NCBI RefSeq assembly: GCF_023373525.1
Contig: NZ_CP097218.1
Span: 4,030,001-4,094,000 of the forward strand
DNA length: 64,000 nucleotides
Direction of reading: 5' to 3'
Source: Brachybacterium kimchii
GTDB lineage: Bacteria > Actinomycetota > Actinomycetes > Actinomycetales > Dermabacteraceae
The position numbers and the translations under genes are program-made. Positions within the stretch are counted from its first letter, which is position 1. The number at the start of each line of letters is the position of its first letter. The notes under the pieces are model-generated. The model did no database searches. It had not been told where the DNA came from and saw nothing but the letters and a program-made list of their open reading frames with translations. This document shows positions 20,388 to 34,673 of this stretch, in pieces.

Positions 20388-20459
20388 GCTGGAGTGGCGC
20401 AACGGTAGCGCACCTGTCTTGTAAACAGGCGGTTGCGAGTTCGAATCTCGTCTCCAGCT
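20388..20459 (+). tRNA. tRNA-Thr (anticodon TGT)
   Basis: Seventy-two-base cloverleaf: acceptor GCTGGAG pairs with CTCCAGC, anticodon stem CCTGT/ACAGG with loop CTTGTAA giving anticodon TGT, T-loop GTTCGAATC, discriminator T, no encoded CCA. The 3' part from 20423 is repeated at 28070-28107; it is the integration site of the element that follows, which rebuilds the tRNA end. Confidence 0.93.
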
Positions 20460-20460
20460 C
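20423..20460 (+). repeat. attachment site repeat, tRNA side (38 bp)
   Basis: Thirty-eight bases from the anticodon stem to just past the tRNA 3' end, identical to 28070-28107. The match breaks at once on both sides (T and A before, C and A; T versus A after). This is the duplicated core of a tRNA-targeted tyrosine-integrase insertion. Confidence 0.93.
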
Positions 20461-20472
20461 TCTGACCAGTCA

Positions 20473-21876
20473 TCACGCCTCGAGCTGTGCCAGCTCCCCG
20501 CCCTCCGTCACCGCTTTCGTCACCGGATTGGTGTCCGGCGTGATGGTGAACAGCTCCTCGAGGACCGACCCGGCGATGTCCGGAGTGGACTGCCAGTCGC
20601 CGTAGACCTTGAGAGTGAAGCTCGGGTCTGTGTGGCCCAGCAGAGCGGCGACCTCGAGAGGGGAGCGGCCCAGGAGTAGGAGCGTGGTCGCGTAGGTGCG
20701 GCGGAACACGTGGGGCGTAGCCCAGGGGAGCCGGACGCTCTCGTGATCGAATGCCTTGCGGAACCTGTTGTGCACGTTGCTCCGGTCGCGGATGGTCCCG
20801 CGCTCAGAGGGGAACACCAGGCCGAGCGTGTTCCATGTCGGCTCGAGCTTCGCTCGTGCCCGATCCGTCGCCTTCGCTTCCCTGAGCATCTTCGCCAGCG
20901 AGGGAGAGATCGGGACGCGGCGCATGCCCGTAGCCGTCTTGGTGTGATCCTGGAGGTACAGCCCCTCGCCGTCCTTCCTTGCGACGGTCGCGGCGACGGT
21001 GACGGCGGGCTGTGCGGCCTCGAGGTGGACGTGCTCCCAGGTGAGTGCCAGAACCTCGCCGATGCGGAGCCCCGTGCCGAACATCAGTCGTGCGATGGGC
21101 AGGAGCATGTTCCGCTGAGCGACCTTGCTCTGCTCGAGGTAGGCGAACAGGCGCTCGAGATCCTCGTGCGAGAGGGCACGCTGGTGATCCTTCGGCACCT
21201 CGAGCGCCTTCCCCTCGGCCTTCGCGGTCTCCTCGGCCTCACGCTGGAGACGCTGGGCTGTCCGCCGGGAGCGCTTGACCTTGCCCAGACGTGCCGCAGG
21301 GTCGGCGACGACGACGCCGTACGTCAGCGCTCGGCGGTAGATCATCCCGACCAGTGACCGTGCTGTGTGTGCGGCTCCGTCGCCGCGTTCGTTCGCGATG
21401 TCCTGTAGCCAATCCTTCAGCTCGCCGTGCGTGATGCTGTCCAGCCGGCGACCGTCGAACCTGTGGCCCTGCGAGAGGAAGTGATTGTCCAGCCCCTCGC
21501 GGTAGATCCGCTGTGTGCCGTCGCTGTAGTCGGCATCGTCGCTGAGCACGTACTCCCGGTGATTGCGTGCGAACGCCGTCCACTCCCTCGGGATGCCCGC
21601 GTACTTCTTCGCCTCGGCCTGTTCCTTCGCCTCGGCTACCAGGTCGGCAACGCGTGCCTCGAGGCCTTGCCTCGCCTTCGTGGGAGTGCTCGCCCTTGGC
21701 CCTTGCACCTGCCGAGTGTCGCCCTCGGCGATGCCTGCTCGAGCGCGGGCCTGGTACACCGTAGCGCCAGGGACGCGGCGCGTGATGGGTCCAGACTCGA
21801 GCTTGACGCCCGTGCCAGAGAAAGCGGTGACGGAGACGTTGCCCGTCTGTGCCGGGGCGAGAGGTGTACGTGCCAT
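20473..21876 (-). CDS. int: tyrosine site-specific integrase
   Basis: 467-residue phage-type tyrosine recombinase that inserts and removes the element at tRNA-Thr. Catalytic residues: Arg in LMFGTGLRIGEVLALTWEHV, His-x-x-Arg in TPHVFRRTYATTLLLLG, and His plus Tyr in LGHTDPSFTLKVYGDW. The N-terminal part includes an SAM-like core-binding domain (KYAGIPREWTAFARNHREYVLSD onwards). MARTPLAPAQTG at 21876 is a common beginning of actinobacterial integrases and is preferred to the ATG at 21912. The stop lies 13 bases from the tRNA-side repeat, and the last codons overlap an arm-like motif (20507-20525). Confidence 0.95.
   Translation of the reverse strand: MARTPLAPAQTGNVSVTAFSGTGVKLESGPITRRVPGATVYQARARAGIAEGDTRQVQGPRASTPTKARQGLEARVADLVAEAKEQAEAKKYAGIPREWTAFARNHREYVLSDDADYSDGTQRIYREGLDNHFLSQGHRFDGRRLDSITHGELKDWLQDIANERGDGAAHTARSLVGMIYRRALTYGVVVADPAARLGKVKRSRRTAQRLQREAEETAKAEGKALEVPKDHQRALSHEDLERLFAYLEQSKVAQRNMLLPIARLMFGTGLRIGEVLALTWEHVHLEAAQPAVTVAATVARKDGEGLYLQDHTKTATGMRRVPISPSLAKMLREAKATDRARAKLEPTWNTLGLVFPSERGTIRDRSNVHNRFRKAFDHESVRLPWATPHVFRRTYATTLLLLGRSPLEVAALLGHTDPSFTLKVYGDWQSTPDIAGSVLEELFTITPDTNPVTKAVTEGGELAQLEA
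20507..20525. repeat. integrase arm-type motif, tRNA side
   Basis: GTCACCGCTTTCGTCACCG, 19 bases, identical to 27944-27962 at the opposite end of the element, and lying inside the integrase 3' coding region. Paired copies of one motif near both attachment repeats are what arm sites for a lambda-type integrase look like. Confidence 0.6.
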
Positions 21877-21891
21877 GTGGGCAACGTACAC

Positions 21892-21904
21892 CAAAGCGGT
21901 GACG
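21892..21904. repeat. inverted copy of arm motif upstream of integrase
   Basis: CAAAGCGGTGACG is the exact reverse complement of CGTCACCGCTTTG at 27955-27967. It lies 16 bases upstream of the chosen integrase start, so integrase may bind here and repress its own promoter. Confidence 0.5.
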
Positions 21905-22157
21905 AGTTGCAAGGTTCAGATACTACGTCTGCCGAGGGCAAGCTCAGGGTAGCGCGCCACAGGAACGCCCCGGGGCATGACCCCTAGATCGCGATTCCCT
22001 ACCCCCCGGCTGGTCTCAGCAACTGTCGGCCTGTACGGGTTCCAGTAGGCCCCTCAGAGCAAAGATTTGGTACCGATCCTGGGGCGTTCCTCTTCGGTGC
22101 CTCCGCATTCGGGAATGTGCGCTCGATCCCGTCGACGGACTGGACTGTGCGCGGGGC

Positions 22158-22179
22158 GTCTGTCCCAGTTGGGACAGAC
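22158..22179. promoter_or_regulatory. perfect 10+2+10 palindrome, operator candidate
   Basis: Arms GTCTGTCCCA and TGGGACAGAC around GT. The 375-base gap 21877-22251 holds no convincing gene; besides this palindrome it contains a CCCCGGGG block near 21970. The inner 16 bases read TGTCC-N6-GGACA, the swapped form of the GGACA-N6-TGTCC core found in the 24377-24541 array. Confidence 0.55.
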
Positions 22180-22251
22180 CGGATGTCTCGATCCACGGCC
22201 GACTTGCTCGCCCCGACGACCGGAGCGATGGACCGTGACGACCAGCCCTGG

Positions 22252-22599
22252 TCACCAATCGGTAGACGTCTTCGGTGTCCGCACCTGCTCTCGGTACGGC
22301 TCTCGCCCCTCGTGTCGGAAAGTGAAGCCCTTGTAGCTCTTCTCGGGCACCAGTCGCTTGCCCGCCTGTGCCTTGGTCACGTAGCCGTGGATCTCCTCGG
22401 CGTCTTCCGCTTCCATGCCCAGCTCGAGGCACCGATCACGGACAAGCACCGGGGCGAACCCTCGCCAGTAGGCCCGGTTCTCCATCAGGTCAGACTTGAG
22501 CTTCGCGACCTCGTTCCACTTGAGGCCAGTGCTGTACCCCGCCGCCCATGAGGCTAGGGCCTTGAGGATCTGATCAATGTCGGCAGGTAGCTTCTCCAT
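22252..22599 (-). CDS. hypothetical protein of the tRNA-Thr element
   Basis: 115 residues starting MEKLPADIDQILKALASWAAGYSTG; I do not recognise it. Mostly helical and charged, no membrane segment, no cysteine pairs. An upstream ATG at 22734 would add 45 residues (MGSRTSLRQLPVETQE...) that look non-coding, so the inner ATG is preferred, although it lacks a strong ribosome site. It is separated by a terminator-like hairpin from the operon upstream and precedes the palindrome and the integrase on the same strand. Confidence 0.55.
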   Translation of the reverse strand: MEKLPADIDQILKALASWAAGYSTGLKWNEVAKLKSDLMENRAYWRGFAPVLVRDRCLELGMEAEDAEEIHGYVTKAQAGKRLVPEKSYKGFTFRHEGREPYREQVRTPKTSTDW

Positions 22600-22774
22600 G
22601 GCCGGACTGTACAGCGCCCCGCGCAGACCTAGGAGAGGTCGAAACAGGTTCACCCCTCCTCGGGTACCCCGGACACTAGTTCTCGTCTCCTGGGTCTCCA
22701 CGGGCAGTTGTCTGAGCGATGTTCTGCTCCCCATTGCAAGCGGAGCGCCTCGAGGGTGCTACGGAAAAGATGAA

Positions 22775-22806
22775 ACCCCCGCCCCGGCGCGATGCCAGGA
22801 CGGGGG
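22775..22806 (-). terminator. intrinsic terminator ending the leftward operon
   Basis: Stem of CCCCCG-C-CC... against GG-A-CGGGGG with two mismatches; on the minus strand it is followed by TTTCATCTTTT. Eighteen bases after the stop at 22824. Confidence 0.65.
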
Positions 22807-22823
22807 CAGATGGTGGGCCAGGC

Positions 22824-23372
22824 TCAGGCGATGTCGAACCTCACCCGGCACTTGAGGGACTCGGCGCGTAGTCCGGTGGGCAGGGTGACGGGGTTCCCTC
22901 CGCTCGCCTGACTGGAGCCAAAGACGCTCACGCTTCCGACAGCGAGATCCACAGAGCCGCACCAAAGGTGCTCATCCCCGGGGGATGCGAGGTGCGTCAG
23001 CGAGGCCGGGAGCCGCTCACCGAGACGAAGAATGTCCCGCGTGAGAGGCTCCAGCGGTTCCCATGCCTCATGCTTCGAGGGGTTGCGATAGCGGACGCCC
23101 TTGAGGGCGAGCACGTACTCCCCGCCCGCCAGAACCTCGACCGGATCGTGCGTGACGGTGACCTCAGAGACGACGATGCGCGGCTTCATCAGCACGGCGG
23201 GCGTGAGATGGGTCCTCGGGTCGAAGACCGCGAGGTCCGCCTCCTCGCCTCCTCCTCCTCGGAGGATCTGCGCGGCGAGGAAGAGGACATCGGCCCGCTG
23301 GTCTTCAGTGAGCACGCCCTCCTCCCATGTGGCGATGGCGGCGAGAGGGGATGCGGTGGTCGTTGCGGTCAT
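22824..23372 (-). CDS. hypothetical protein, last gene of element operon
   Basis: 182 residues, not recognised. The start at 23372 (MTATTTASPLAAIATWEEG) follows GGAGA at a good distance; an upstream ATG at 23423 overlaps the preceding stop and would add 17 residues rich in Thr and Asp. It has an acidic N-terminal half with EDQRADVLFLAAQILRGGGGEE, then a beta-rich part with two cysteines (HLWCGSVDLAVGSVSVFG, SLKCRVRFDIA). No signal peptide or membrane segment. It follows the coiled-coil gene 23414-24100 directly and precedes the terminator, so the two are probably one functional pair. Confidence 0.7.
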   Translation of the reverse strand: MTATTTASPLAAIATWEEGVLTEDQRADVLFLAAQILRGGGGEEADLAVFDPRTHLTPAVLMKPRIVVSEVTVTHDPVEVLAGGEYVLALKGVRYRNPSKHEAWEPLEPLTRDILRLGERLPASLTHLASPGDEHLWCGSVDLAVGSVSVFGSSQASGGNPVTLPTGLRAESLKCRVRFDIA

Positions 23373-23413
23373 GGTGTCTCCGTTCGTGGTGGTGTCGTCG
23401 TGTTCGGTGCCGG

Positions 23414-24100
23414 TCAGCGCCATGCCTGGCCCTCGAGGTAGTCACGCTCGCGCCCCTCGTGAAGGTGACGGCGAACCTCGCCGTCCGTCTGCCGGTACAC
23501 GTTCCCCAGGGCGCGCGATGTATCGACCGGCTGGTAGTCCACGCCGTCAAGGACTGCCTTGACGGACTCATTGCGCCTCCGCTCATCGTCGGTACCGACC
23601 TGGACCTGCGTGCGAGCAAGCGGATCGCACTCGCCGATCACCAGACCCACGCGCCGTGCCTTGCCCATGAGCGAGTTGACGGAGCTGTTCCACTCCTCAG
23701 TGACTGCCTTCAGGGCCTCTGCCGCTCGCAGGATCTCGGCCTCGTGCTTCGCGCGGGCCTCCTGGTACTTCTCCCATGCGACGGGGAGAGCACCGGCCCC
23801 CTGTGCCCCGAACTCGGCGAGGTCGATTGCGGCCACGCTCTGCTCGGCAACAGACTTCACGCGCTCGAGGTGCTCCAGGCGCTCGCGCTTTCGGGGGATG
23901 GTGGTCTCGTCAATCTCGGCGAGGCGCTCGACATCGGCGAGGACTGAGCCAGCGTCGATGTCAGCGAGGATCTGATCCCTCTCCTCCTCGAGCTTGGCCA
24001 CCTCAGCCGCGACAGCGGCGAGGGCGTCCTCAGCTTCGGCGAGGGACAGGTGCGCCGCGTCAGCGGCGCTAGAGGTCTTCGTCTTGGTCTTCGTGGCCAT
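23414..24100 (-). CDS. hypothetical coiled-coil protein of the element
   Basis: 228 residues, not recognised. Residues 18-60 and about 100-150 are long Ala/Glu/Lys-rich helices with heptad-like spacing (EAEDALAAVAAEVAKLEEERDQILADI; ARAKHEAEILRAAEALKAVTEEW), separated by a short turn. The C-terminal third is basic and polar (EVRRHLHEGRERDYLEG). No cysteine pairs or membrane segment except one Cys at about 155. It could be a scaffold- or structural-type protein; nothing identifies it further. It is read from the array-side of the element with two small hairpins in its leader, and its stop overlaps the alternative start of the next gene. Confidence 0.75.
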   Translation of the reverse strand: MATKTKTKTSSAADAAHLSLAEAEDALAAVAAEVAKLEEERDQILADIDAGSVLADVERLAEIDETTIPRKRERLEHLERVKSVAEQSVAAIDLAEFGAQGAGALPVAWEKYQEARAKHEAEILRAAEALKAVTEEWNSSVNSLMGKARRVGLVIGECDPLARTQVQVGTDDERRRNESVKAVLDGVDYQPVDTSRALGNVYRQTDGEVRRHLHEGRERDYLEGQAWR

Positions 24101-24118
24101 GCTGAACCTTTCGTTGGT

Positions 24119-24167
24119 GGGCCGCTTCGCGGCCCCTTGGGTGCACCGAGGAGGAGAGGTCCTCCTC
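24119..24167. other. two hairpins in leader of the coiled-coil gene
   Basis: GGGCCGC-TTC-GCGGCCC (24119-24135) and GAGGAGGA-GAGG-TCCTCCTC (24148-24167) lie 19-67 bases upstream of the minus-strand start at 24100. The second has an anti-ribosome-site-like AGGAGG content. They may attenuate read-through from the operon upstream. The rest of 24168-24376 shows three CCAAGGGG repeats on the minus strand and no gene. Confidence 0.4.
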
Positions 24168-24376
24168 TTCGACTCCTCGGTGCGTTGGGTCTAGAACTCC
24201 GATGGCCGGTAGGCCAGGGAGCCCCTTGGTCTACGGCGGCGAGGACTGGACTCGGCGGGAGGTGGATCTAGACCTAGGCCGTTGGACCCAGGGCCAGGGC
24301 GCACCTACAACCGTTCATCTCCTCGCCGCCCCTTGGATCTATCTGGTGTAGTGATCTGGTAGATGATCTGGTAGGT

Positions 24377-24541
24377 GGACACCCAGATGTCCGGTCCGGA
24401 TAGGACACCCAGGTGTCCGGTCGGTCGTCCCAGATGTCCGGTCCGAGGGCCTCAGACAGGACACCTAGATGTCCGGTCCTGGATAGGACACCCAGATGTC
24501 CGGTCCGAGGGCCTCAGACAGGACACCCAGATGTCCGGTCC
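24377..24541. repeat. iteron-like array of six GGACA-N6-TGTCCGGTCC sites
   Basis: Five full copies start at 24377, 24403, 24459, 24486 and 24521; a sixth (about 24426-24444) has lost its left half. Each is a near-palindrome GGACA-CCCAGA-TGTCC followed by GGTCC. A 62-base unit is tandemly repeated (34 identical bases at 24431 and 24493). AT-richer ATCTGGT direct repeats (24339-24374) flank the array on the left. It begins right after the stop of a winged-helix gene (24548-25204). This is the layout of an iteron origin with its initiator gene, or of a multi-site operator. Confidence 0.75.
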
Positions 24542-24547
24542 GAGGGC

Positions 24548-25204
24548 CTACGTCTCGCCCTCCCACTCCGGCAGGGTGAGCCGGTACTCCGTGGTGTGGT
24601 TGCTCCCGTAGTTGGAACCCCTCTGCACCTCGACCACGTAGCGCTTCCGGATCAGCGCGGCGATGTACCGGCGCACGGTCCGCTCTGTCTTCCCGACGCC
24701 TTGCGCGATCAGGTTCTGCCCCGGTCGGCAGTCGCCCAACGTCGTGTGCGTGCAGTAGGAGAGCATCACGTTGAGACACGCGACCTCCTCGGCGGACAGG
24801 TCCGGTCGGCCCCCTTGGTTGATCGCCTTGAAGAAGGCGAAGAACGCCCGGAGGTCCGGAGTGTCGCCCTCCGGTGGCCGTGGCACCTCCTCCACCTCCG
24901 TCACCATCTCCTCGGTCTCCGGCGCCGGTTGGGGATCAGCCGCCGCACGGGGCCGCAGGAACTCGGGAAGCTCCTGCACTCCCTCCTCGGTCAGCCGGCC
25001 CGGTGTCGTCGTCTTCGTGACGATCGGCTCCTCATGCCCTGCCGGGGCGTACTCCACCACTTCGGTGAACGGCCCCGCCGGAAAAGGGTCGGGGTATGGA
25101 TCCCATGTCCTGTGCGCGGTCCCGGGGGTGTGCACGTTCTCGTCGTACGGAGTCACCCGGCATCGCCTGCCGTCCGAGCTCTCGCAGTCGTAGGTGACCG
25201 TCAT
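24548..25204 (-). CDS. winged-helix protein, candidate replication initiator
   Basis: 218 residues. The C-terminal part, about 135-212, is a winged helix-turn-helix of the HTH_36/replication-protein type (DLSAEEVACLNVMLSYCTHTT, GQNLIAQGVGKTERTVRRYIAALIRKRYVVEVQRG, then a beta wing). The first 110 residues are Pro/Glu/Thr-rich and probably flexible. ATG at 25204 overlaps the stop of the 67-residue gene (ATGA); a GTG-type extension to 25231 is not needed. The stop abuts the iteron-like array, the usual place of the initiator's binding sites. A role in replication initiation is an inference from domain and position. Confidence 0.7.
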   Translation of the reverse strand: MTVTYDCESSDGRRCRVTPYDENVHTPGTAHRTWDPYPDPFPAGPFTEVVEYAPAGHEEPIVTKTTTPGRLTEEGVQELPEFLRPRAAADPQPAPETEEMVTEVEEVPRPPEGDTPDLRAFFAFFKAINQGGRPDLSAEEVACLNVMLSYCTHTTLGDCRPGQNLIAQGVGKTERTVRRYIAALIRKRYVVEVQRGSNYGSNHTTEYRLTLPEWEGET

Positions 25205-25404
25205 CCAGTCACCCCCTCGGCACCCTCCCACTCCTCAGTGATCCATGTCGGGATGATGCCGTCCTCGTCCACGTACTCGAGGATCGCCAGTAGGTAGACG
25301 GCCTCTCCGGTCTCGAGCACGCCCGCCTCCCAGCGCCTGTGGATCTCCTCGGCGTACTCAGCCTTGCCCTGCTCGTCGAACTTGTGTGTTGTCGTCGTGT
25401 TCAT
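25201..25404 (-). CDS. small acidic hypothetical protein
   Basis: 67 residues (MNTTTTHKFDEQGKAEYAEEIHRRWEAG...), not recognised, acidic and Trp-containing. Start overlaps the preceding stop (ATGA) and stop overlaps the following start (ATGA), so it is translated as part of the coupled chain; that coupling is the main evidence that it is real. Confidence 0.65.
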   Translation of the reverse strand: MNTTTTHKFDEQGKAEYAEEIHRRWEAGVLETGEAVYLLAILEYVDEDGIIPTWITEEWEGAEGVTG

Positions 25405-25751
25405 GCCGCCTCGACCTCCTCGGCTCCATCCGTCTCGGCTCGACGGGCGATCATGGAGTACAGCTTCGCGGGCGTCGATCCTGGTGCCAGCACTCCGCCC
25501 TCGGTCAGGCGGTCGATGCTCTGCCTCACTTCCCGCATGGGCACCTTGGTCCTGCCGTCCCCTCCCAGCCAGCGGGCGAGTGTGCGATCGCTCAGCGTTG
25601 CCACACCCTCGCTGTCCGCGAACAGGACCGAGGCAAGGGCGACCTTCACGTCATGGTGGACGTTCTCCGACCCCCGTCCCTTCAGCAGGTAGATCGCCTC
25701 ATCGGCGATCAGCTCCACGCAGACGACATCGGGCAGTCGGCCCCGCTTCAC
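25401..25751 (-). CDS. small winged-helix-like protein of the element
   Basis: 116 residues with a GTG start overlapping the previous stop. Residues about 30-95 (VKVALASVLFADSEGVATLSDRTLARWLGGDGRTKVPMREVRQSIDRLTEGGVLAPG) look like a winged helix: a helical pair, a recognition helix, then a short wing. Not assignable to a named family. It resembles in architecture the 97-residue gene upstream and the 218-residue gene downstream, so three DNA-binding-type proteins are produced in a row. Confidence 0.65.
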   Translation of the reverse strand: MKRGRLPDVVCVELIADEAIYLLKGRGSENVHHDVKVALASVLFADSEGVATLSDRTLARWLGGDGRTKVPMREVRQSIDRLTEGGVLAPGSTPAKLYSMIARRAETDGAEEVEAA

Positions 25752-26041
25752 TCGACCTCACCGCCCGTGAGGATGAACTCGCGCTGGTCGCTCTCCGGGG
25801 TGATCACACCCTGGGACCGGAGCTGTCGGATCGCCGTATCCACGTCAGCCGGGGTGCAGGTGCTCTCACCGTCCGACGCCAACGCTCGCCGCAAGAACAC
25901 CTTGGACGGCGGAACCCATCGCCCGCTGTCGTCGGCGTGCTCGTGGATCAGGACAGTCAGGCGCAGACCTCGGTAGGCCCGCTTCGTCTTCATCTCTTCG
26001 TGGTGCTTCGAGTAGCTGAATCCCATCGCGGGATCTCCCAT
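25748..26041 (-). CDS. small winged-helix-like protein of the element
   Basis: 97 residues; the core (YRGLRLTVLIHEHADDSGRWVPPSKVFLRRALASDGESTCTPADVDTAIRQLRSQGVITPESDQREFILTGG) has the pattern of a winged helix ending in the R-x-L-x-x-x-G-V-I turn. No named family. Its ATG is 66 bases after the Cys-rich gene; its stop overlaps the next GTG. Confidence 0.6.
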   Translation of the reverse strand: MGDPAMGFSYSKHHEEMKTKRAYRGLRLTVLIHEHADDSGRWVPPSKVFLRRALASDGESTCTPADVDTAIRQLRSQGVITPESDQREFILTGGEVE

Positions 26042-26107
26042 CAGTTCGTGGGCCGCTCGTCTCCATCAGGGACGCTCACGGCTCGGTGGTAAGTGGTGTG
26101 CCTTCGC

Positions 26108-26755
26108 TCAGGCGGCGACTGCCCGTGTCGACTCAGGAGAGCCGTGCCGGGCGTCCTGGGGTCCGTAGTGCCAGACGCCCCGCGCGTCCTCCCAGTGCTT
26201 AGACGGGCAGTCGTTGAGCATGTCCAGGCAGTACCGTTCGCCGCCGCGCCCCTTGCGATGGAGCGTGAACGGCTTCTCGCCTGCAAACGTCTCGTGACAG
26301 CCTCCGCAGTGCCAGAACCTCGGGCCGCTATTCAGCTCGGTCCCGCACGGGCAGTACGGATGCGCCGAATCGGGAGCGCCTGCGTACTCGTGACCCCAGG
26401 TGTGCCAGGACTTCAGCGAGACGTACTCGGGTCGGTCGCGATCCCTGGGCCGCTTCCTCTCGTCGATCATGCAGACGGGGCAGTCGGAACGGATGCGGGA
26501 GGCCTCGAGCTGATATCGGGTCAGACGCCGCGAGGGTTCACCGTCAACGGGTGCACAGAGGTCCAGGCTGTCCCTGGTCCGCTCCGTGTCTTCGACGGCT
26601 CCTAGGGCCGACTCTCCCAGCACGTAGCCGGTCCCGTTCTCGAGTGCACGGAGCGCCTGCCCGCGAGTAGGGAAACTGCCCCTCTCGACGCCGCCCAGCG
26701 TCACGATGTAGAGGTCACGCTCCGCGTCGTGGGAGATCCCGTCGCGGGCGCTCAC
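26108..26755 (-). CDS. Cys-rich, zinc-ribbon-like protein of the element
   Basis: 215 residues. The N-terminal 45 residues form a small beta-alpha unit (DLYIVTLGGVERGSFPTRGQALRALENG) like a DNA- or DUF-type tag. Cysteine pairs at SDCPVCMID, YCPCGTEL and WHCGGCHETF, with further Cys and His (RYCLDMLNDCPSKHW), suggest two or three zinc sites. It is not a recognisable nuclease. GTG start overlaps the excisionase stop (GTGA). Function unknown; a zinc-binding nucleic-acid protein is the best guess. Confidence 0.65.
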   Translation of the reverse strand: MSARDGISHDAERDLYIVTLGGVERGSFPTRGQALRALENGTGYVLGESALGAVEDTERTRDSLDLCAPVDGEPSRRLTRYQLEASRIRSDCPVCMIDERKRPRDRDRPEYVSLKSWHTWGHEYAGAPDSAHPYCPCGTELNSGPRFWHCGGCHETFAGEKPFTLHRKGRGGERYCLDMLNDCPSKHWEDARGVWHYGPQDARHGSPESTRAVAA

Positions 26756-26982
26756 GCGGCCACCTCGGAGCCGTCGCTCAGGTCGGCGATGTGCGCCTGT
26801 ACGTCGCTCAGGCGGTAGCGAACCGCTCGAGCAGACACCTTCACGTGCCTTGGCTGGGGAGTGTGGCCGGTAGATCGCCAGGTGCGCAGTGTCGCGGGCT
26901 TCAGCCCGAGCATGGACGCGGCTTCCTGCTCGGTCAGCAGACGGTCGCCGACCACAGGGTGCGCAGGGGTAGAGAGGGACAT
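26752..26982 (-). CDS. xis: excisionase-like MerR/HTH_17 DNA-binding protein
   Basis: 76 residues with LLTEQEAASMLGLKPATLRTWRSTGHTPQPRHVKVSARAVRYRLSDVQAHIADL, the standard excisionase/AlpA winged-helix pattern. It probably directs integrase toward excision or acts as a control protein. First gene of the coupled leftward operon; GAAGGA lies 8 bases before the ATG. A good promoter lies 312 bases upstream, which leaves an unusually long leader. Confidence 0.85.
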   Translation of the reverse strand: MSLSTPAHPVVGDRLLTEQEAASMLGLKPATLRTWRSTGHTPQPRHVKVSARAVRYRLSDVQAHIADLSDGSEVAA

Positions 26983-27294
26983 GATGGTGTCCTTCAGCGG
27001 GGATCTCGACGCCTACAACCCCGGGACTCTTCGGTCCTCATCGGCGGGCGGATCAGAGATCGGATCTCGGCGAGGGTCGCGGTTCGCTCCGCGTCCTCCT
27101 CGTGCAGTGGTCCCAACGCCAGCGCGTTCCATCGCGCCGTCTGGAGATGATCCAACTGCCGCAGGTCTCGACGCCAGCGCGCATCCGCTTACTTCACCAC
27201 GGTGCACGCCGTCTGGAGACGGATACCTGCTCGCCCTCTCGCCGGGAGGCGGTGGGGCGGGGCCTGCTTGGTGCGACCCTCAACCGGAACGTCG
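26983..27294 (-). other. long leader with direct repeats and a palindrome
   Basis: No convincing gene. Contains ACGCCAGCGCG at 27116 and 27171, CGCCGTCTGGAGA at 27135 and 27207, and a perfect palindrome CCGTCTGGAGACGG at 27209-27222. These lie between the promoter at 27295-27322 and the excisionase start, so they could be operators, arm sites or an untranslated regulatory RNA. Confidence 0.4.
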
Positions 27295-27322
27295 ATTGTA
27301 CACCTGTTCGAACATGCGTCAA
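27295..27322 (-). promoter_or_regulatory. strong promoter of the leftward element operon
   Basis: On the minus strand TTGACG, 16 bases, TACAAT. The spacer holds the 10-base palindrome TGTTCGAACA, a likely repressor site. Confidence 0.65.
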
Positions 27323-27396
27323 CATCCATCGTTGATCGTCGCTTGACCAGTCGGAGCGGATGCGCTCGATAGACCCACATCTATGTACCACGTCTA

Positions 27397-27428
27397 GGTG
27401 ATACACTATCGGGATCACCAGGTACGAT
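27397..27428 (+). promoter_or_regulatory. leaderless promoter with overlapping operator
   Basis: TACGAT (27423-27428) stands six bases before ATG 27435, the leaderless layout. An inverted repeat GGTGAT-N11-ATCACC (27397-27419) covers the region between -10 and -35. Confidence 0.55.
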
Positions 27429-27434
27429 GGTCGC

Positions 27435-27848
27435 ATGAACGTCACAGAGATCTCGACCCATTGGCACGCCGCAGTCGTCGCACCGGACGCAGGGATCGGA
27501 GTCGCGATGGCCGCGACCCCGATCTGCGAGTGCCCCGGCTGTCTCGTCCGGGTCTGGCAGGACCGGGAGTGCTTCGACGCCGAGTTGCGCGTACTCGGCT
27601 TCGCCCGCGTGGACCTCGCGCCAGGGGACGGCGAGAGGGAAGTGCTCTACGCACTCGGCGAGGTAGAGCCGCAATGGACCGAGGGCGGAATGCTCCAGGT
27701 TCCGTGGTCACCCGACGCCCTGCCGGTCGCTGAGTACGGCGGCGATGTTGAACAGCTCCGAGAGCATCCGCTCGTCCCGATGTTGTGGGGACGCCTTGAA
27801 GCCCTTGTGCGAGACCTTGACCGTGAGGCCGACAGCGCTACGGCGTAG
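27435..27848 (+). CDS. hypothetical protein, only rightward gene of the element
   Basis: 137 residues, not recognised. It has a CECPGC cysteine cluster at 31-36, an otherwise acidic, Trp-containing body (VWQDRECF, EPQWTEGGMLQVPWSPD) and a helical end. No membrane segment. Divergent from the main operon, with its own leaderless promoter and terminator, the position usually held by an immunity, repressor or cargo gene. Confidence 0.65.
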   Translation: MNVTEISTHWHAAVVAPDAGIGVAMAATPICECPGCLVRVWQDRECFDAELRVLGFARVDLAPGDGEREVLYALGEVEPQWTEGGMLQVPWSPDALPVAEYGGDVEQLREHPLVPMLWGRLEALVRDLDREADSATA

Positions 27849-27868
27849 GACTCCACAGGGCACAACCC

Positions 27869-27905
27869 AGCGCCCCGACCTTCCAGTGCGGAGGGCCGGG
27901 GCGCT
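27869..27905 (+). terminator. terminator of the rightward element gene
   Basis: Sixteen-base-pair stem (27869-27884 with 27890-27905, one mismatch, one G-T pair), five-base loop, then TCGTTGT. Confidence 0.75.
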
Positions 27906-27943
27906 TCGTTGTGAGGGAGCTTCAAAGCGTGAACGTCACCACT

Positions 27944-27967
27944 GTCACCGCTTTCGTCACCGCTTTG
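27944..27967. repeat. integrase arm-type motifs, far side
   Basis: GTCACCGCTTTCGTCACCG (27944-27962), the same 19 bases as 20507-20525, continuing into a second GTCACCGCTTTG (27956-27967). A third GTCACC precedes at 27935. These lie 103-135 bases inside the far attachment repeat. Confidence 0.6.
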
Positions 27968-28069
27968 GGTGACGAGGTTCCTGGTGCTCCGACGCCTCGA
28001 CGGTGCACAAGTGCAGGTAGAGCCAACATGCAAAAACGGGGATCGACAACCTGAAACACCACATGCGCA

Positions 28070-28107
28070 AAACAGGCGGTTGCGAGTTCGAATCTCGTCT
28101 CCAGCTC
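28070..28107 (+). repeat. attachment site repeat, far side (38 bp)
   Basis: Exact second copy of the tRNA-Thr 3' segment (20423-20460). It marks the original chromosomal junction: the base after it starts the hairpin that would have ended the tRNA transcript before insertion. Confidence 0.93.
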
Positions 28108-28110
28108 AGC

Positions 28111-28170
28111 GAAACAGCCCCTCGCCCGGAGGTGCACCGCACACGGTGCCCAGTGGCGAGGGGCTGTTTC
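28111..28170. terminator. displaced tRNA-Thr terminator, also ends ALDH gene
   Basis: Perfect 16-base-pair stem (28111-28126 with 28155-28170) enclosing a second hairpin GCACCG-CACA-CGGTGC. It begins three bases after the far repeat, so it sat three bases past the tRNA-proximal repeat before the element entered. It also lies downstream of the minus-strand aldehyde dehydrogenase. Confidence 0.75.
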
Positions 28171-28229
28171 AGCGTGGATCCACGCTCTCGACGTCGCCGT
28201 GCGCGGAGCGCATCGACGAGGAGCCGTGC

Positions 28230-29750
28230 TCAGCGCCCGTGGTTGATCTGCACGTGCTTGGTGCGGGAGAAGTCCTCGAGCGCATGGATCGAGAGGTCCC
28301 GGCCGTACCCGGAGCCCTTGAAGCCGCCCCAGGGCAGCTCGCTCGCGAGCACCAGGTGGCTGTTGACCCAGACGGTCCCGAAGTCCAGACGGCGCGGCAC
28401 GTCGAGGGAGCGGGCGGCGTCGCGCGTCCACACCGAGGCGGCGAGGCCGTAGACGACGTCGTTGGCGCGGCGCACCGCCTCGTCCTCGTCGGCGAAGGTC
28501 TCCACCGTGATCACCGGCCCGAAGACCTCCTCGCGGGCGGCCTCGGTGCCCTCGCGCACGTCGACGAGGACCGTCGGCTCCACGAAGTAGCCGGGGCCCG
28601 GGAGGGCGGCGCCGCCGATGGCGACGCGGGCCCCGTCCTGCTGCGCGCGGTCGATGAAGGCCAGCACCCGCTCCTGGTGGGTCTGCGAGATGAGGGGGCC
28701 CACCTCGATGTCCTCCCCGGCGTCGGGGGTGCCCACGGGGATCTGCCGGACCTGCTCCACGAGCTGCTCGACGAAGCGGTCCGCCACGTCCTCGTGCACC
28801 AGGACGCGCGTCGCGGCCCCGCACTCCTGGCCGGAGTTCCAGAACGACGCGCTGCGCAGTCCTGCGGCCGTCGCCTCGAGATCGGCGTCCTCGAAGACGA
28901 GCACGGGCGCCTTGCCGCCGAGCTCGAGATGCACGCGCTTGAGGGACTCGGCGGCGGCGCTCGCGACCGCGCGGCCGCTGCCGACGCTCCCGGTGAGGGC
29001 GATCAGGTCGACCCCGGGGTGGGACGACATCGCGGCGCCGACCTCGCGGCCCCGCCCCAGCACGATGTTGAGGACGCCCGCGGGCACGATGTCCGCGATC
29101 AGCTCGGCGAGCTTGAGCAGGGAGAGCGGGGTGAGCTCCGCGGGCTTGACCACCGCGGTGTCGCCGACGGCGAGGATGGGCGCGATCTTCCACGCGGCCA
29201 TCAGCAGCGGGTAGTTCCAGGGCACGATCACCCCGACCACGCCGACCGGCTCCCGGAGCACCAGGGAGGTGTGGTCGGCGACGTAGTCGGCGGTGCCGAG
29301 GCCGGTGAGGGAGCGCGCCGCGCCGGCGGAGAAGCGGAAGACGTCGGCCGCCGAGGCCACGTCGTCCGCGGTGACCGACGGCGGCTTGCCGGTGTCCAGC
29401 GCCTCGAGCCGGCCCAGCAGCTCGGCCTCGGCGTCGATGCGGTCGGCGATCGCCAGCAGCAGCTCGGCCCGCTCCCGGGGCGTGGTCGCGCCCCACGCGG
29501 CGAAGGCCGCCGCGGCGGCGTCCGCGGCGCGGTCCAGCTCGGCGGTGCCCGCCTGGGGGAGGAGGGCGACCTGATGCTCGTCGGAGGGGTCGACCAGCGG
29601 TGCCGAGACGGGGCCCGTGGTGTCGAAGGCCCCGTCGATGAAGTGGCCCAGCGGCGGCATCTCCGCCTCGGCGACGAGGGGATCCCCTGCCCCGCGGCGC
29701 ACCTGCACCCGCTCGTCGGCGGCTCGATCGGTGGTGGTCGAAGTGGTCAT
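28230..29750 (-). CDS. NAD(P)-dependent aldehyde dehydrogenase
   Basis: 506-residue ALDH-superfamily enzyme oxidising an aldehyde to an acid. Catalytic Glu in HLELGGKAPVLVFEDAD, catalytic Cys in FWNSGQECGAATRVLV, Asn in GVIVPWNYPLLMAAWKIAPI, and the PWGGFKGSGYGRDLS ending, typical of betaine-aldehyde/gamma-aminobutyraldehyde dehydrogenases. The start at 29750 is preferred to 29792, because a promoter (TTGTGT, 17 bases, TACGGT at 29797-29825 on the minus strand) puts the RNA start near 29790. The promoter overlaps the operator at 29805. Likely works on the product of the amine oxidase encoded to the right. Confidence 0.9.
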   Translation of the reverse strand: MTTSTTTDRAADERVQVRRGAGDPLVAEAEMPPLGHFIDGAFDTTGPVSAPLVDPSDEHQVALLPQAGTAELDRAADAAAAAFAAWGATTPRERAELLLAIADRIDAEAELLGRLEALDTGKPPSVTADDVASAADVFRFSAGAARSLTGLGTADYVADHTSLVLREPVGVVGVIVPWNYPLLMAAWKIAPILAVGDTAVVKPAELTPLSLLKLAELIADIVPAGVLNIVLGRGREVGAAMSSHPGVDLIALTGSVGSGRAVASAAAESLKRVHLELGGKAPVLVFEDADLEATAAGLRSASFWNSGQECGAATRVLVHEDVADRFVEQLVEQVRQIPVGTPDAGEDIEVGPLISQTHQERVLAFIDRAQQDGARVAIGGAALPGPGYFVEPTVLVDVREGTEAAREEVFGPVITVETFADEDEAVRRANDVVYGLAASVWTRDAARSLDVPRRLDFGTVWVNSHLVLASELPWGGFKGSGYGRDLSIHALEDFSRTKHVQINHGR

Positions 29751-29803
29751 CGCGCGATGTTCTCCTGACGCGTCGTTGCGGTGGTCGGACACCGGGACCG
29801 TAT

Positions 29804-29826
29804 CTTGTGATCACACATCACACAAG
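29804..29826. promoter_or_regulatory. GntR/FCD operator at ALDH promoter
   Basis: TTGTGATCACACATCACA with the exact palindrome TGTGATCACA (29806-29815), bracketed by CTTGTG and CACAAG. Matches the site at 30622-30639. Confidence 0.7.
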
Positions 29827-29886
29827 GATGGTCGTGCGTGCAGGGGCCGCACCGGGGCACGGATCGGTGCGGGGGAGGGGGAGAGG

Positions 29887-30576
29887 TCAGCGCTCCTTCT
29901 CGGAGCCCTGCGTCTCGAGCTGGGCCTCGATGCGCTGGGTGGCGCTGGTGAGCGAATCGCCCGTGAGCGTCGCGGCGGCCTCGCCGTCGTGCGCGGCGGC
30001 GGCCTCGATCAGCTGCTGCGGGAAGCGCCAGAGCGTCGAGGCGGTGCCCGTGTCCACGGAACCGCGAGCGCCCATCACCTTGTAGGGGCGGCAGTCCTGC
30101 CAGAGCCCGCGGACGACCTTGAGGAGGAAGGGGTTCCCTGACGCGCCGTAGAGCGCGGCGAGCAGGGCCTCGTCGATGTCCAGGGCGTCGAGGAGGCGGC
30201 CCTCGTCGACCGCGGTCCTGAGCAGCTCGAACTGGGTGCGCATCTCCTCGAGCCCCGCCTCGTCGATGCGCACGGCCCCTTCGCGGGCCGCCGCCGACTC
30301 GAGGATCCGACGGGTCTCGTAGACGTGCACGAGCTCCTCGAGGCTCAGCGTGCGCACCACCGCGCCCTTGTGGGGGGAGCGCTCCGCGAGGCCCGCCTCC
30401 TCGAGGCGACGGATCGCCTCGCGCACCGGCATCACGCTGGTGCCGACCTCCTGGGCGATGTCGCGGATCCGCAGCCGGGTCCCCGTGGGCATGTCCCCGC
30501 GGAGGATCGCGTCGTGCAGCGAGGCGTACACCTGGTCGGTCAGCAGGGTCGGTTCGATGCGCTTGGAGAGGGCCAC
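29887..30576 (-). CDS. GntR-family regulator, FCD (FadR) subfamily
   Basis: 229 residues: winged helix at about 10-75 (VYASLHDAILRGDMPTGTRLRIRDIAQEVGTSVMPVREAIRRLEEAGLAERSPHKGAVV), then the all-helical FCD ligand-binding domain with conserved ETRRILE. It lies between two copies of the same operator and is read away from the oxidase operon. It presumably represses the aldehyde dehydrogenase, itself and the oxidase operon until an inducer binds. The inducer is unknown. Confidence 0.9.
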   Translation of the reverse strand: MALSKRIEPTLLTDQVYASLHDAILRGDMPTGTRLRIRDIAQEVGTSVMPVREAIRRLEEAGLAERSPHKGAVVRTLSLEELVHVYETRRILESAAAREGAVRIDEAGLEEMRTQFELLRTAVDEGRLLDALDIDEALLAALYGASGNPFLLKVVRGLWQDCRPYKVMGARGSVDTGTASTLWRFPQQLIEAAAAHDGEAAATLTGDSLTSATQRIEAQLETQGSEKER

Positions 30577-30611
30577 CTGTCCAGATTACGCGGTGGATCC
30601 GGGGAACCCTC

Positions 30612-30640
30612 TTGCGTTGATTTGTGATCACAGATTACAG
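30612..30640. promoter_or_regulatory. GntR/FCD operator over oxidase operon promoter
   Basis: TTGTGATCACAGATTACA (from 30622) with the same TGTGATCACA palindrome (30623-30632) as upstream of the ALDH gene. A plus-strand promoter TTGCGT (30612), 17 bases, TTACAG (30635) overlaps it. Confidence 0.65.
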
Positions 30641-30767
30641 TCGCTCCACGGATCGCGGCGCGGACGCCGGATCCCAGATCGCACAGGGACGTGCACCGCC
30701 CCGCGACGACGCACAGGCAGTTCCGCCCGACCCACGCAGGCCGGGCCCATTGAGAAGGAGCACGTCC

Positions 30768-32174
30768 ATGAAGGACGCCATCGTCATCGGCGCCGGCCTC
30801 GCCGGCCTCTCCGCGGCCTGGAGACTGCGGCACTTCGACACCCTCGTCCTCGAGGCCGACGACCGCGTGGGAGGTCGGATCCGCTCCGAGCGGCGCGGCG
30901 CGTACTGGCTGAACTGGGGCGGGCACGTCTTCGCCGGCCCCGACTCGTCGACCGACGAGCTGCTGCGCGAGGTCGGCGTGACCGCGGTCGAGATCCCCGG
31001 CTCGCTGCAGGGCATGGCCATGAACGGCACGTTCCTGCGCAAGGGCCACATCGCGACCTATCCGCTGCGCATCCCGATGCCGATGGCCGATCGGATCGCG
31101 ACCTTCCGCGCGGGCGCCAAGGTGCTCGGCGGCGTGGCCCGCTACATGGACGTGGTGCGCACCCGGCCCGGCGAGTCCGGGGCCATGCGCCAGCAGCGGA
31201 TCTACGACTTCGAGGGCGATCGCAGCTTCCAGGACTACGTGGGGGACCTGCCGGAGGACGCCGCGTCCCTGTTCAGCACCACCGTCACCCGCTCCGCCGG
31301 GAACATGGACCAGATCTCCGCCGGCGCCGGCATCGGCTACTTCAGCCTCGTGCTCGGCTTCGGCCAGGGCCTGAACCGCGGGATCGTCGGCGGCCCCTCC
31401 ACGCTCACCCGGACCCTCGCCGCATCTCTCGGCGAGGACCTGCAGCTGGGCGCGACCGTCCACGAGGTCGTGCACCGGCCCGGATCCGTGCTGGTGCGCT
31501 ACAGCCAGGACGGCGTCGAGCGCGAGGAGGAGGCGCGCACCGTCGTCGTCGCCACCACGGCCGACGTCACCCACCGCATCGGCGTGGACCTTCCCGAGGA
31601 CCTCCGCGACGCCCTCTCGCGCATCCAGTACGGACCCCATGTGAGCACGGCGTTCCTCACCGACGAGACGACCTCCCGTCCCTGGGACGACATCTACGCG
31701 ATCGCCGCCCCCAAGCGGTCCTTCGCGATCGCCCTGAACCAGGCGAGCATCGTGCGCGGCACGGAGTCCGAGCGCCGCCCCGGCGGCAGCCTCATGACCT
31801 TCTCCCCGGCGGGGCTCGGGCGCGCGCTGCTCGACCTCGACGACGAGGAGGTCCAGCGCCGCCACCTGCGCGACCTCGACCAGATCCTCGGGCACGGGTT
31901 CGCGGACTCCGTGGTCGAGGCGGAGACCGACCGCTGGGCGGTCGCCTCCCCGTACAGCTTCCCCGGACGCGCCGCCCTGCAGAGCGTCCTCACCCGAGGC
32001 ACCGACCGGGTCTTCCTGGCCGGCGACTACCTCGGGACCCTCTACACCGAGAGCGCCGTCACCACCGGCTTCTCGGCGGCCCAGAACGCGGCGAGCGTCC
32101 TGGCCACCCCCGTGCGGCGGAGCCTGTCGGGCCCTGCCGCCGATGCACCGACCCTGACCCCCACCGCAGTCTGA
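30768..32174 (+). CDS. FAD-dependent amine oxidase/protoporphyrinogen-oxidase-like protein
   Basis: 468-residue flavoprotein with N-terminal FAD motif IVIGAGLAGLSAAWRL...VLEADDRVGGRIRS and C-terminal VFLAGDYLGTLYTESAVTTGFSAAQNAA, the signature of the flavin amine-oxidase superfamily. No signal peptide. In this setting an amine or amino-acid oxidation is more likely than haem synthesis, because no haem genes are near and the ALDH, lyase and amino-acid symporter share the locus. Short GAAGGAG ribosome site. First gene of a three-gene operon. Confidence 0.82.
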   Translation: MKDAIVIGAGLAGLSAAWRLRHFDTLVLEADDRVGGRIRSERRGAYWLNWGGHVFAGPDSSTDELLREVGVTAVEIPGSLQGMAMNGTFLRKGHIATYPLRIPMPMADRIATFRAGAKVLGGVARYMDVVRTRPGESGAMRQQRIYDFEGDRSFQDYVGDLPEDAASLFSTTVTRSAGNMDQISAGAGIGYFSLVLGFGQGLNRGIVGGPSTLTRTLAASLGEDLQLGATVHEVVHRPGSVLVRYSQDGVEREEEARTVVVATTADVTHRIGVDLPEDLRDALSRIQYGPHVSTAFLTDETTSRPWDDIYAIAAPKRSFAIALNQASIVRGTESERRPGGSLMTFSPAGLGRALLDLDDEEVQRRHLRDLDQILGHGFADSVVEAETDRWAVASPYSFPGRAALQSVLTRGTDRVFLAGDYLGTLYTESAVTTGFSAAQNAASVLATPVRRSLSGPAADAPTLTPTAV

Positions 32175-32188
32175 GAAGGAGACCGACC

Positions 32189-33082
32189 ATGACCCTGGAC
32201 CTCCACGGAGTCCTCACCGCCCTGGCCACGCCGTTCGACGCCGAGGGGGCGATCGACGAGGCGACCCTGCGACGCGTCGTCGACCGCTCGATCGACGCGG
32301 GCGTCGACGGCGTCGTCGCCGCCGGATCGACCGGCGAGGTCGGCGCGCTCGGCCGCGACGAGCGCCTGCGCCTGGTCGACACCATCATCGACCAGACCGC
32401 CGGGCGCGTCCCGGTGATCGCCCAGACCGGTGCGACCAGCACCGCCGAGGCGATCTCGCTCTCGCGCGCCGCACAGCGCTCTGGCGCCGACGTGCTCATG
32501 CTGGTCACGCCCTTCTACGAGCCCCTCAGCCTCGAGGAGACCGTCCAGTACATCACCGAGGTCGCCGGCGCTGTCGACCTCCCGGTGATGCTCTACAACA
32601 TCCCCGCGGCCACCGGCGTCAACCTCGATCCCGCCACGGTCCGCTCCCTCGCCGAGCAGAACGAGAACATCCGCTTCATCAAGGACTCGAGCGCGAACTG
32701 GGAGCAGGCGCTCGAGCTGATCCGCCTGCACGGGGACGTCATCGACACCTTCATCGGCTGGGACGTCTACCTCTACAGCGCCCTGGTCGAGGGCGCCGCC
32801 GGCGTCATGGCCGGCGCGGCGAACGTCGTGCCCGAGGAGATCGTCGCCGTCACCCGCCGCATCGCGGACGGGGACCTCGAGGGCGCCCGGGAGCTCTGGT
32901 CCCGCCTGTACCCGGTGATCGCCTCCCTGTTCGCCGTGCCCTTCATCCCCGCCGTCAAGGCCGGGCTCGGGCTCACCGGCCTCGAGGTCGGCGCTCCCCG
33001 CCGTCCGGTGGCCCCGCTGGACGAGGCCGCCCTGGCCCCGATCCGGCAGGCGCTCGCCGAGCTCAGGGAGGGGCGCGGCTGA
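32189..33082 (+). CDS. DHDPS/NAL-family aldolase or dehydratase
   Basis: 297-residue class I aldolase-fold protein related to DapA. Family motifs AAGSTGEVGALGRDERLRL, Tyr in VMLYNIPAATGVNL and Schiff-base Lys in IRFIKDSSANW are present. Genes of this family outside lysine synthesis work in sugar-acid, hydroxyproline or N-acetylneuraminate breakdown; here it is in a catabolic operon with oxidase and symporter and is unlikely to be the housekeeping DapA. Substrate unknown. Confidence 0.85.
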   Translation: MTLDLHGVLTALATPFDAEGAIDEATLRRVVDRSIDAGVDGVVAAGSTGEVGALGRDERLRLVDTIIDQTAGRVPVIAQTGATSTAEAISLSRAAQRSGADVLMLVTPFYEPLSLEETVQYITEVAGAVDLPVMLYNIPAATGVNLDPATVRSLAEQNENIRFIKDSSANWEQALELIRLHGDVIDTFIGWDVYLYSALVEGAAGVMAGAANVVPEEIVAVTRRIADGDLEGARELWSRLYPVIASLFAVPFIPAVKAGLGLTGLEVGAPRRPVAPLDEAALAPIRQALAELREGRG

Positions 33083-33083
33083 G

Positions 33084-34610: not shown

Positions 34611-34641
34611 CGCCCGCGAACGCCCGCTCCCATCACGCCGA

Positions 34642-34673
34642 GACGGCGGGCCCGCCTGCGCGGGCCCGCCGTC
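34642..34673. terminator. bidirectional hairpin terminator
   Basis: Perfect 14-base-pair stem (34642-34655 with 34660-34673), four-base loop, between the convergent symporter and GAPDH genes. Confidence 0.85.

Follow-up and report, generated by a model that had tools for sequence, protein, structure and literature searches.

Here, we analysed a 7,685-bp island in the genome of Brachybacterium kimchii (4.35 Mb, two contigs), which is inserted at a tRNA-Thr gene within a 64,000-nucleotide stretch of contig NZ_CP097218.1 (positions 4,030,001 to 4,094,000; hereafter, the window). An earlier note on this DNA had described a complete integrative element that conforms to the standard pattern of neither conjugative elements nor prophages and might be a phage satellite or a cryptic replicating element. 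The island lies between two exact 38-bp direct repeats, with no further identity at either edge of the repeat (chance alone would give about 2e-11 exact 38-mer pairs in 64 kb), and its GC content is 66.0%, versus 72.3% in the left flank and 72.4-72.7% in the right flank. The ends and the predicted integration and excision apparatus comprise the following features:

20388..20460, plus strand: tRNA-Thr (TGT), the target gene, with an Rfam tRNA match; the left att core is formed by its last 38 bp (3′ end)
20423..20460: att core, left copy (repeat search)
28070..28107: att core, right copy, exact (repeat search)
20473..21876, minus strand: tyrosine integrase, the start set by comparison with the related island L007; the open reading frame (ORF) opens at 21912
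26752..26982, minus strand: excisionase/AlpA-like protein of the MerR type with a helix-turn-helix (HTH) domain
20507..20525: arm-type repeat on the integrase side, 46 bp from the core, a 19-bp direct match to 27944-27962
27944..27962: arm-type repeat on the other side, 107 bp from the core, matching 20507-20525

Searched across the family, the tRNA-Thr query matched in 47/47 genomes. The DNA left of the island aligns through the end of the tRNA to G034 (89%) and G005 (79.7%), and, after the tRNA and another 20-90 bp, window DNA from beyond the island resumes, at position 36307 in G034 and at 34756 in G005. Because this DNA resumes just past the tRNA, the island is absent from the orthologous site in both genomes; the segment is not vertically present in all relatives, a pattern that the earlier note had named as fatal to its proposal. 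In G011, a sister island occupies the tRNA-Thr site, and window-like DNA resumes at 34660. With direct-repeat ends, an integrase and empty sites in relatives, the island qualifies as an integrative mobile element. Other possible traces of gain or loss are seen at this site. An extra 6.5 kb just beyond the right att (28169-34659), with genes for an aldehyde dehydrogenase, a GntR/FCD regulator, an amine oxidase and a Na-alanine symporter, is missing here in G034, G005 and G011 and, given its host-like GC content, looks like a separate gain or loss. G020 contains a 1.9-kb remnant (L049:2836-4774), in which the tRNA-Thr gene and a second exact 38-bp repeat enclose no more than the truncated end of an integrase related to this one, plus two ORFs without a Pfam match. 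Judged by eye, the tRNA in G027 (L034) is followed by an apparent scar, a few bases resembling the 3′ end of the integrase gene and then apparently the gene that normally lies downstream, as would be left by the imprecise loss of an island.

The island is a member of a small family. A profile of g228, one of its genes without a clear family, detected 7 loci in 6/38 Brachybacterium genomes, with two members at different tRNA genes in G011. The earlier note had proposed a search for the same gene order at tRNA-Thr elsewhere, and related islands exist at that gene (L006 and L007), together with islands at tRNA-Met (L047, L074 and L076) and tRNA-Lys (L075). Each of the six islands with both ends has 38-bp repeats, whereas no second repeat was found for L076, which is at a contig end. 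The five complete islands without an insertion sequence (IS)-like insert span 7,378-8,003 bp (7685 bp for the present island, 8003 for L006, 7378 for L007, 7695 for L074 and 7430 for L075); L047, with 9170 bp, contains IS3-like transposase ORFs, recognised by eye. The islands have in common an integrase and, in most cases, a MerR/AlpA-like excisionase, along with small proteins (among them a phage-O-like initiator), g228 and a gene at the position of g199. On the minus strand of the present island, the order is excisionase-like, zinc-binding, g97, g116, a 67-aa ORF, initiator-like, iterons, g228, g199, cargo and integrase; in L007 and L075, the g228/g199 pair precedes the initiator. Beyond the genus, when 396 genomes were drawn evenly from the order, the g228 profile matched in 7 genomes, two of them outside Brachybacterium (G403 and G407; E 2.3e-4 and 9.3e-4), and these two were dismissed as island carriers, no other island gene being present in the 20 kb inspected. 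Partial zinc-domain matches at L060-L063 and L065 were likewise set aside, since no other island gene accompanies them, and L065 has none at all. In G068, from another family of the order, a 355-aa protein gave no sign of being a fusion of g228 and g199; the same locus (L064:238-3093) carries relatives of the excisionase, zinc and initiator genes in the same order at a contig end and is perhaps a distant island.

The integrase, which the earlier note had placed at one end, is matched by PF00589 (E 1.6e-18) and phrog_1 (E 3.8e-46), and the excisionase-like gene by PF12728 (E 1.9e-7, above the cut-off) and phrog_66 (E 5.9e-10). Integrases related to this one at E < 1e-60 occur in 3/47 family genomes, and the tRNA-Met and tRNA-Lys islands encode another integrase type. 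Excisionase relatives are present in five other islands, with none seen in L047 by tblastn or profile. Arm repeats in a like arrangement recur in L006 and L007, so that the three tRNA-Thr islands have a 19-21-bp arm word, CGGTGACGAAAGCGGTGAC or close variants; the two complete tRNA-Met islands have a shorter one, ACACAGAGT (11 bp in L047, with its 9-bp core again in L074, which is weaker evidence), and the arm repeat of the tRNA-Lys island L075 is 8 bp only. Judging from these words, the arm repeats appear to track the integrase type. The sequence itself shows a gene for a tyrosine integrase, arm repeats on both sides and a core whose 38 bp reproduce the end of the tRNA exactly.

The candidate replication module consists of two adjacent features:

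24548..25204, minus strand: replication-initiator-like winged-helix protein; the ORF opens at 25231
24372..24540: iteron array of five 25-nt copies, with a unit like GGACACCCAGATGTCC; candidate replication origin

The matches of the initiator are weak (phrog_678, E 1.9e-5; phrog_270, E 2.6e-5; HTH_36, E 0.0033, under the Pfam cut-off); no plasmid or phage record was matched by tblastn, and its profile found nothing usable among solved structures (best E 0.16). The repeat array, which the earlier note had called iteron-like, is well supported: its best 12-mer occurs in 7 copies versus at most 2 in 20 shuffles. Iterons directly follow the initiator in three of the seven islands, this one, L006 and L007, with 7, 3 and 4 copies of the respective word (at most 2 in shuffles) and a copy length of 22-25 nt. 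Between the initiators of this island and L006, residues 11-95 are 81% identical (69/85), as opposed to 36% (36/99) for residues 120-227, the DNA-binding half, and the iteron words of the two islands differ. This pattern, seen in one island pair, fits a joint exchange of the DNA-binding half and the origin. The description of the element as replicating is thus supported indirectly, by an initiator-like gene with iterons.

Between this module and the integrase lie the following features:

23414..24100, minus strand: g228, predicted helical/coiled-coil, no clear family; profile match in all seven islands
22824..23423, minus strand: g199, no clear family; relatives by tblastn in L006 and L074
22045..22742: variable cargo slot, without DNA homology to L006 save one 28-bp match beside it, both flanks being homologous (blastn breakpoints)
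22252..22599, minus strand: cargo ORF of 115 aa with similarity to the C-terminal ~90 residues of plasmid proteins (230-237 aa)

A gene of 141-244 aa adjoins g228 in all seven islands. At the g199 position, the genes of L007 and L075 are similar to each other (tblastn), and those of L047 and L076 were assigned by adjacency to g228, their aligned identity being 22-26%. Comparison of profiles with solved structures gave nothing usable for g228 (best E 0.16); the one match of g199, to the designed protein Tako8 (33 positions, E 0.0016), is not usable either. A role of g228 as a tape-measure or head-morphogenesis protein was considered and rejected: the weak rows come from single members (best E 0.0068) and were taken as coiled-coil noise. 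Altogether, seven ORFs (cargo, g199, g228, the 67-aa ORF, g116, g97 and p137) have no clear family and the initiator is only weakly recognised; the earlier note had counted about six unrecognised genes.

Comparison of one pair, this island and L006, points to purifying selection on the integrase, the excisionase, g97 and p137 (dN/dS 0.095 for the integrase and 0.135 for p137; 0.60 for g199), and at 0.36 the constraint estimated for g228 is moderate. Synonymous divergence ranges from 0.10 (g228) up to 0.70 (g116), and this unevenness points to mosaic exchange. These observations bear on the idea that the island is what decay has left of a prophage or conjugative element, the ends of which were kept by chance. 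True remnants do occur, as the G020 stretch with its cut integrase demonstrates, and the cargo ORF spans only the last part of its plasmid relatives; yet a similar gene set recurs across different integrases and sites, and four genes are under purifying selection, so we consider decay highly improbable.

The cargo slot is the variable part of the island. In L006, it holds a 369-aa DUF3644 protein (Pfam E 1.5e-39) that PADLOC assigns to the antiphage candidate PDC-S19 (E 1.7e-102); DUF3644 is reportedly mentioned in a survey of HEPN domains (PMC3710099). The cargo protein of L076 matches Stc1 at E 5e-7 and, below the cut-off, HNH_5 (E 0.0012); that of L074 has weak matches only (best E 0.011) but looks similar to the L076 one by eye. 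Relatives of the present cargo ORF are found on 16 actinobacterial plasmid records, 10 of them predicted conjugative, with 44-46% identity among the ten matches listed. Given that the match covers the last ~90 residues in three annotated relatives of 230-237 aa, the ORF is either a truncated gene or a C-terminal domain that stands alone. Of four plasmid contexts inspected, one is on an Arthrobacter plasmid, where a 237-aa relative (L112:1072-1785) directly adjoins a MobF relaxase gene; no transfer gene is listed near the other three, for which the gene tables are incomplete.

Taken together, these results lead us to read the element as a complete integrative island, probably able to replicate but not self-transmissible, which relies on a helper to spread; we assign this reading a probability of about one half. 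This reading draws support from the recurrence of such islands (two in G011), exact ends, empty sites, arm repeats tracking the integrase and initiator-iteron pairs, as well as from purifying selection, the presence of PDC-S19 in the L006 cargo slot and a narrow size in the satellite range; furthermore, the zinc protein and the initiator match phage-type families. Under such a scenario, the AlpA/MerR-like protein would tip the integrase toward excision, and the excised circle would be copied by the winged-helix initiator, which would bind its own iterons and recruit host replisome proteins. Circle copies might then exit the cell with the helper, with g228 and its neighbour possibly acting as hijack or interference genes and the cargo slot presumably paying the host, e.g., with antiphage genes. 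As for the helper route, we rank packaging by a phage first, slightly favoured but tentative at best, followed by conjugative mobilisation and, third, by the lack of any dedicated route.

The search for a mover covered 11 island proteins with Pfam and ten of these, p137 being left out, with PHROGs. None of them has a portal, capsid, relaxase or FtsK match, and the set of portal, terminase and capsid genes expected of a prophage was not recovered. The excisionase-like protein has a lone weak terminase small-subunit row (phrog_57, E 0.0082), which we took as HTH similarity, many HTH families having been matched as well. The scans thus agree with the earlier note, in which no conjugation, capsid, terminase or relaxase gene was visible, and no convincing transfer or packaging gene, which would have undone its proposal, emerged among the unrecognised genes. 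Links to phages were sought with seven island proteins. The zinc domain has relatives in 4 Arthrobacter phage records (about 42% identity) and the integrase in 406, all below 60% identity; blastn of the whole island against phages matched 62 records, those among the matches listed being 38-66 bp long at E 4e-3. Thus, the phage-satellite part of the original suggestion stands unproven, with distant phage relatives of the zinc domain and the integrase on one side and nothing specific tying the island to a helper on the other.

Several observations weigh against a helper-borne island, in particular one packaged by a phage. None of 50,697 phage records matched the initiator, g228, g97, g199 or the cargo ORF, and IMG/VR scans found no relative. 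No specific DNA is common to the island and the resident prophage stretches, the longest exact match being 17 bp, as in a clean host control (for this island or L007, the longest matches with portal-gene stretches are ~17 bp versus 16-17 in host DNA), and exact matches per kb are even fewer in the prophage stretches than in the control. Relatives of the integrase (30%) and the excisionase (43%) in the stretches near portal genes are no more than distant; two ~55-bp blastn matches of L076 and L047 to such stretches, at E about 5e-5, are somewhat better than the best match in host DNA (8e-4). Portal genes, counted for two families, occur in 9/38 genomes, the one studied here included, but their presence in 3/6 island-bearing versus 6/32 other genomes is not a significant association (Fisher p 0.13). 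Also on this side of the balance, g228 and g199 have no family and their predicted structures are poor (mean pLDDT 53.7 and 30.6, respectively), and four of the seven islands lack a convincing iteron array: the words of L074 occur 3 times versus 2 in shuffles but are scattered, the counts are 2 versus 2 in L047 and 3 versus 3 in L076, and the L075 count of 3 has no shuffle control, with longer repeats searched for in L047, L006 and L007.

The plasmid affinities of the cargo ORF and the second contig of the genome (L107-L110) likewise count against packaging by a phage. This contig, 63.7 kb long and of lower GC content (65-67%), carries FtsK/SpoIIIE, AAA_10, VanY and ParA-type genes and is possibly a conjugative-type plasmid. 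Together with the plasmid-borne cargo relatives, it favours conjugation, i.e., a mobilizable island riding a conjugative plasmid or an actinomycete integrative and conjugative element in trans via an unrecognised transfer site, and the cargo relative adjoining a MobF gene moved our weights for phage packaging and conjugation by 5 points each. Against this possibility, the island and the contig have nothing in common beyond one 30-bp match (E 0.034), no relaxase or FtsK match was obtained for the island proteins, the zinc protein and the initiator are of phage type and, the cargo slot being the variable part, the origin of the cargo says little about the core; accordingly, we regard mobilisation by conjugation as doubtful. 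Finally, the island could be a self-copying integrating element with no dedicated route, moved by chance through generalized transduction or DNA uptake, given that neither a recognised transfer or packaging gene nor a helper footprint was found. However, the retention of g228 with its neighbour in all seven islands, under a dN/dS of 0.36, goes beyond the needs of integration and replication, which makes this scenario, too, rather unlikely, if anything slightly more so than the conjugative one.

Returning to helper-assisted spread, a more specific version posits a minimal phage satellite family new in Actinomycetota, so far confined to one genus, with an exchangeable initiator-iteron replicon, a novel hijack module formed by g228 and its neighbour, and a length of ~7.4-8.0 kb such that whole-number concatemers fill the helper capsid. 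We consider this version speculative and less likely than not. In g228 and its neighbour, the family offers concrete candidates for a transfer or hijack function of a new type.

The remaining features are the following:

25201..25404, minus strand: 67-aa ORF; no relative in L006 or L007 by tblastn
25401..25751, minus strand: g116, a small protein with relatives in L006, L047, L074 and L076
25748..26041, minus strand: g97, with relatives in all seven islands (in L076 via the L047 copy only)
26108..26755, minus strand: zinc-binding protein (Phage_zn_bind_3), PF24071 E 1.5e-9
26984..27200: untranslated stretch upstream of the excisionase gene, mostly 86-98% identical among this island, L006 and L074 (sliding identity)
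27295..27322, minus strand: candidate sigma-70-like promoter (TTGACG-16-TACAAT, identified by eye) directed toward the excisionase operon
27435..27848, plus strand: p137, a divergent gene at the far end, no clear family, with relatives in L006, L074 and L047

Relatives of the zinc protein are present in L006, L007 and L047, with none seen in L074, L075 and L076 by tblastn or profile. The amino acid identity of p137 is 90.5% to L006, 89% to L074 and 29% to L047; L007 and L075 have a different, common gene in its place. The untranslated stretch is better conserved among the three islands than the adjoining genes, the identity of L074 dropping to about 50-60% in the gene that follows. As a helper packaging site it was rejected: good matches in 38 genomes are confined to the islands of the window genome and G011, and other rows are short, with alignments of 24-84 bp at the ten loci inspected, nine of which looked unrelated by eye and one (L085) is the arm repeat within the L007 integrase gene. 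Nor does it appear to be a structured RNA (no Rfam match; no excess folding over 26983-27310, z -1.0) or a small ORF, one member having an in-frame stop, as read by eye.

Phage satellites have been described as elements of 7-20 kb with an integrase, regulation and replication but no structural genes (PMC13376191), and the narrow size of the island falls within this range. By the definition given in PMC11389934, satellites encode mechanisms or signals favouring packaging in phage particles; the same paper notes that some hitchers lack genes like those of the helper and that packaging or transfer sites are hard to identify, and it argues that reliance on helpers is common among mobile elements, frequently where neither a gene nor a site for this can be recognised. 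The available portion of PMC9862828 contains nothing on satellites.

The closest parallel is with the phage-inducible chromosomal minimalist islands (PICMI) of Vibrionaceae, as portrayed in PMC10803314: these, too, are small (6.1 kb in the prototype), combine an integrase with an AlpA-type regulator and a replication gene, lack capsid-remodelling genes and have a hotspot with fast gene turnover. Two parts of the PICMI model are found here, the integrase (PF00589, E 1.6e-18) and AlpA (PF05930 or PF12728; the latter, E 1.9e-7). The other two differ: PICMI have a DUF3987/DUF5906 primase, for which none of the 11 proteins gave a match, and sit at fis, whereas the present island has a winged-helix initiator and the family uses tRNA sites, tRNA-Thr in this case. 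Moreover, packaging by a helper has been shown for PICMI (PMC10803314), whereas the island is known from its sequence.

Phage-inducible chromosomal islands (PICI) and streptococcal satellite phages possess an integrase, an excisionase-like regulator and their own replication region, as the island does; unlike in these elements, no terminase, capsid or repressor gene was matched in it. Streptococcus satellite phages are among the integrase matches listed first, at 23.6-24.8% identity, which reflects generic integrase similarity only. Actinomycete integrative and conjugative elements (AICE), as characterised in PMC3218068, resemble the island in having an integrase (tyrosine, as here, or serine), an excisionase-like gene, their own replication initiator and an actinobacterial host. 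In contrast to AICE, the island lacks the FtsK/SpoIIIE transfer gene (no PF01580 match in 11 proteins), and its initiator matches no AICE type defined by Pfam (RepAM, PF12307; Prim-pol, PF09250), RepSA having had no Pfam model at the time of that study. For integrative and mobilizable elements, the expected hallmark is a relaxase and/or an oriT; the Pfam scan of the 11 proteins gave no relaxase match.

Candidate PICIs of Mycobacterium are likewise actinobacterial satellite-like islands, those with a tyrosine integrase lying at tRNA genes in the maps described in PMC10654092; unlike our island, which has no capsid match, they are defined by an integrase and a major capsid gene. The literature searched, which left out most subscription papers, contained no description of such islands in Brachybacterium. 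Being small, present at three tRNA genes, endowed with clear empty sites and built of parts that can be exchanged (the integrase and its arm sites, the initiator and its iterons, the cargo slot), the family offers a tractable case for finding the mover. Compared with the systems above, the kind of element is known, whereas three things are apparently new: its gene set, the pair of g228 and its neighbour, and the family itself.

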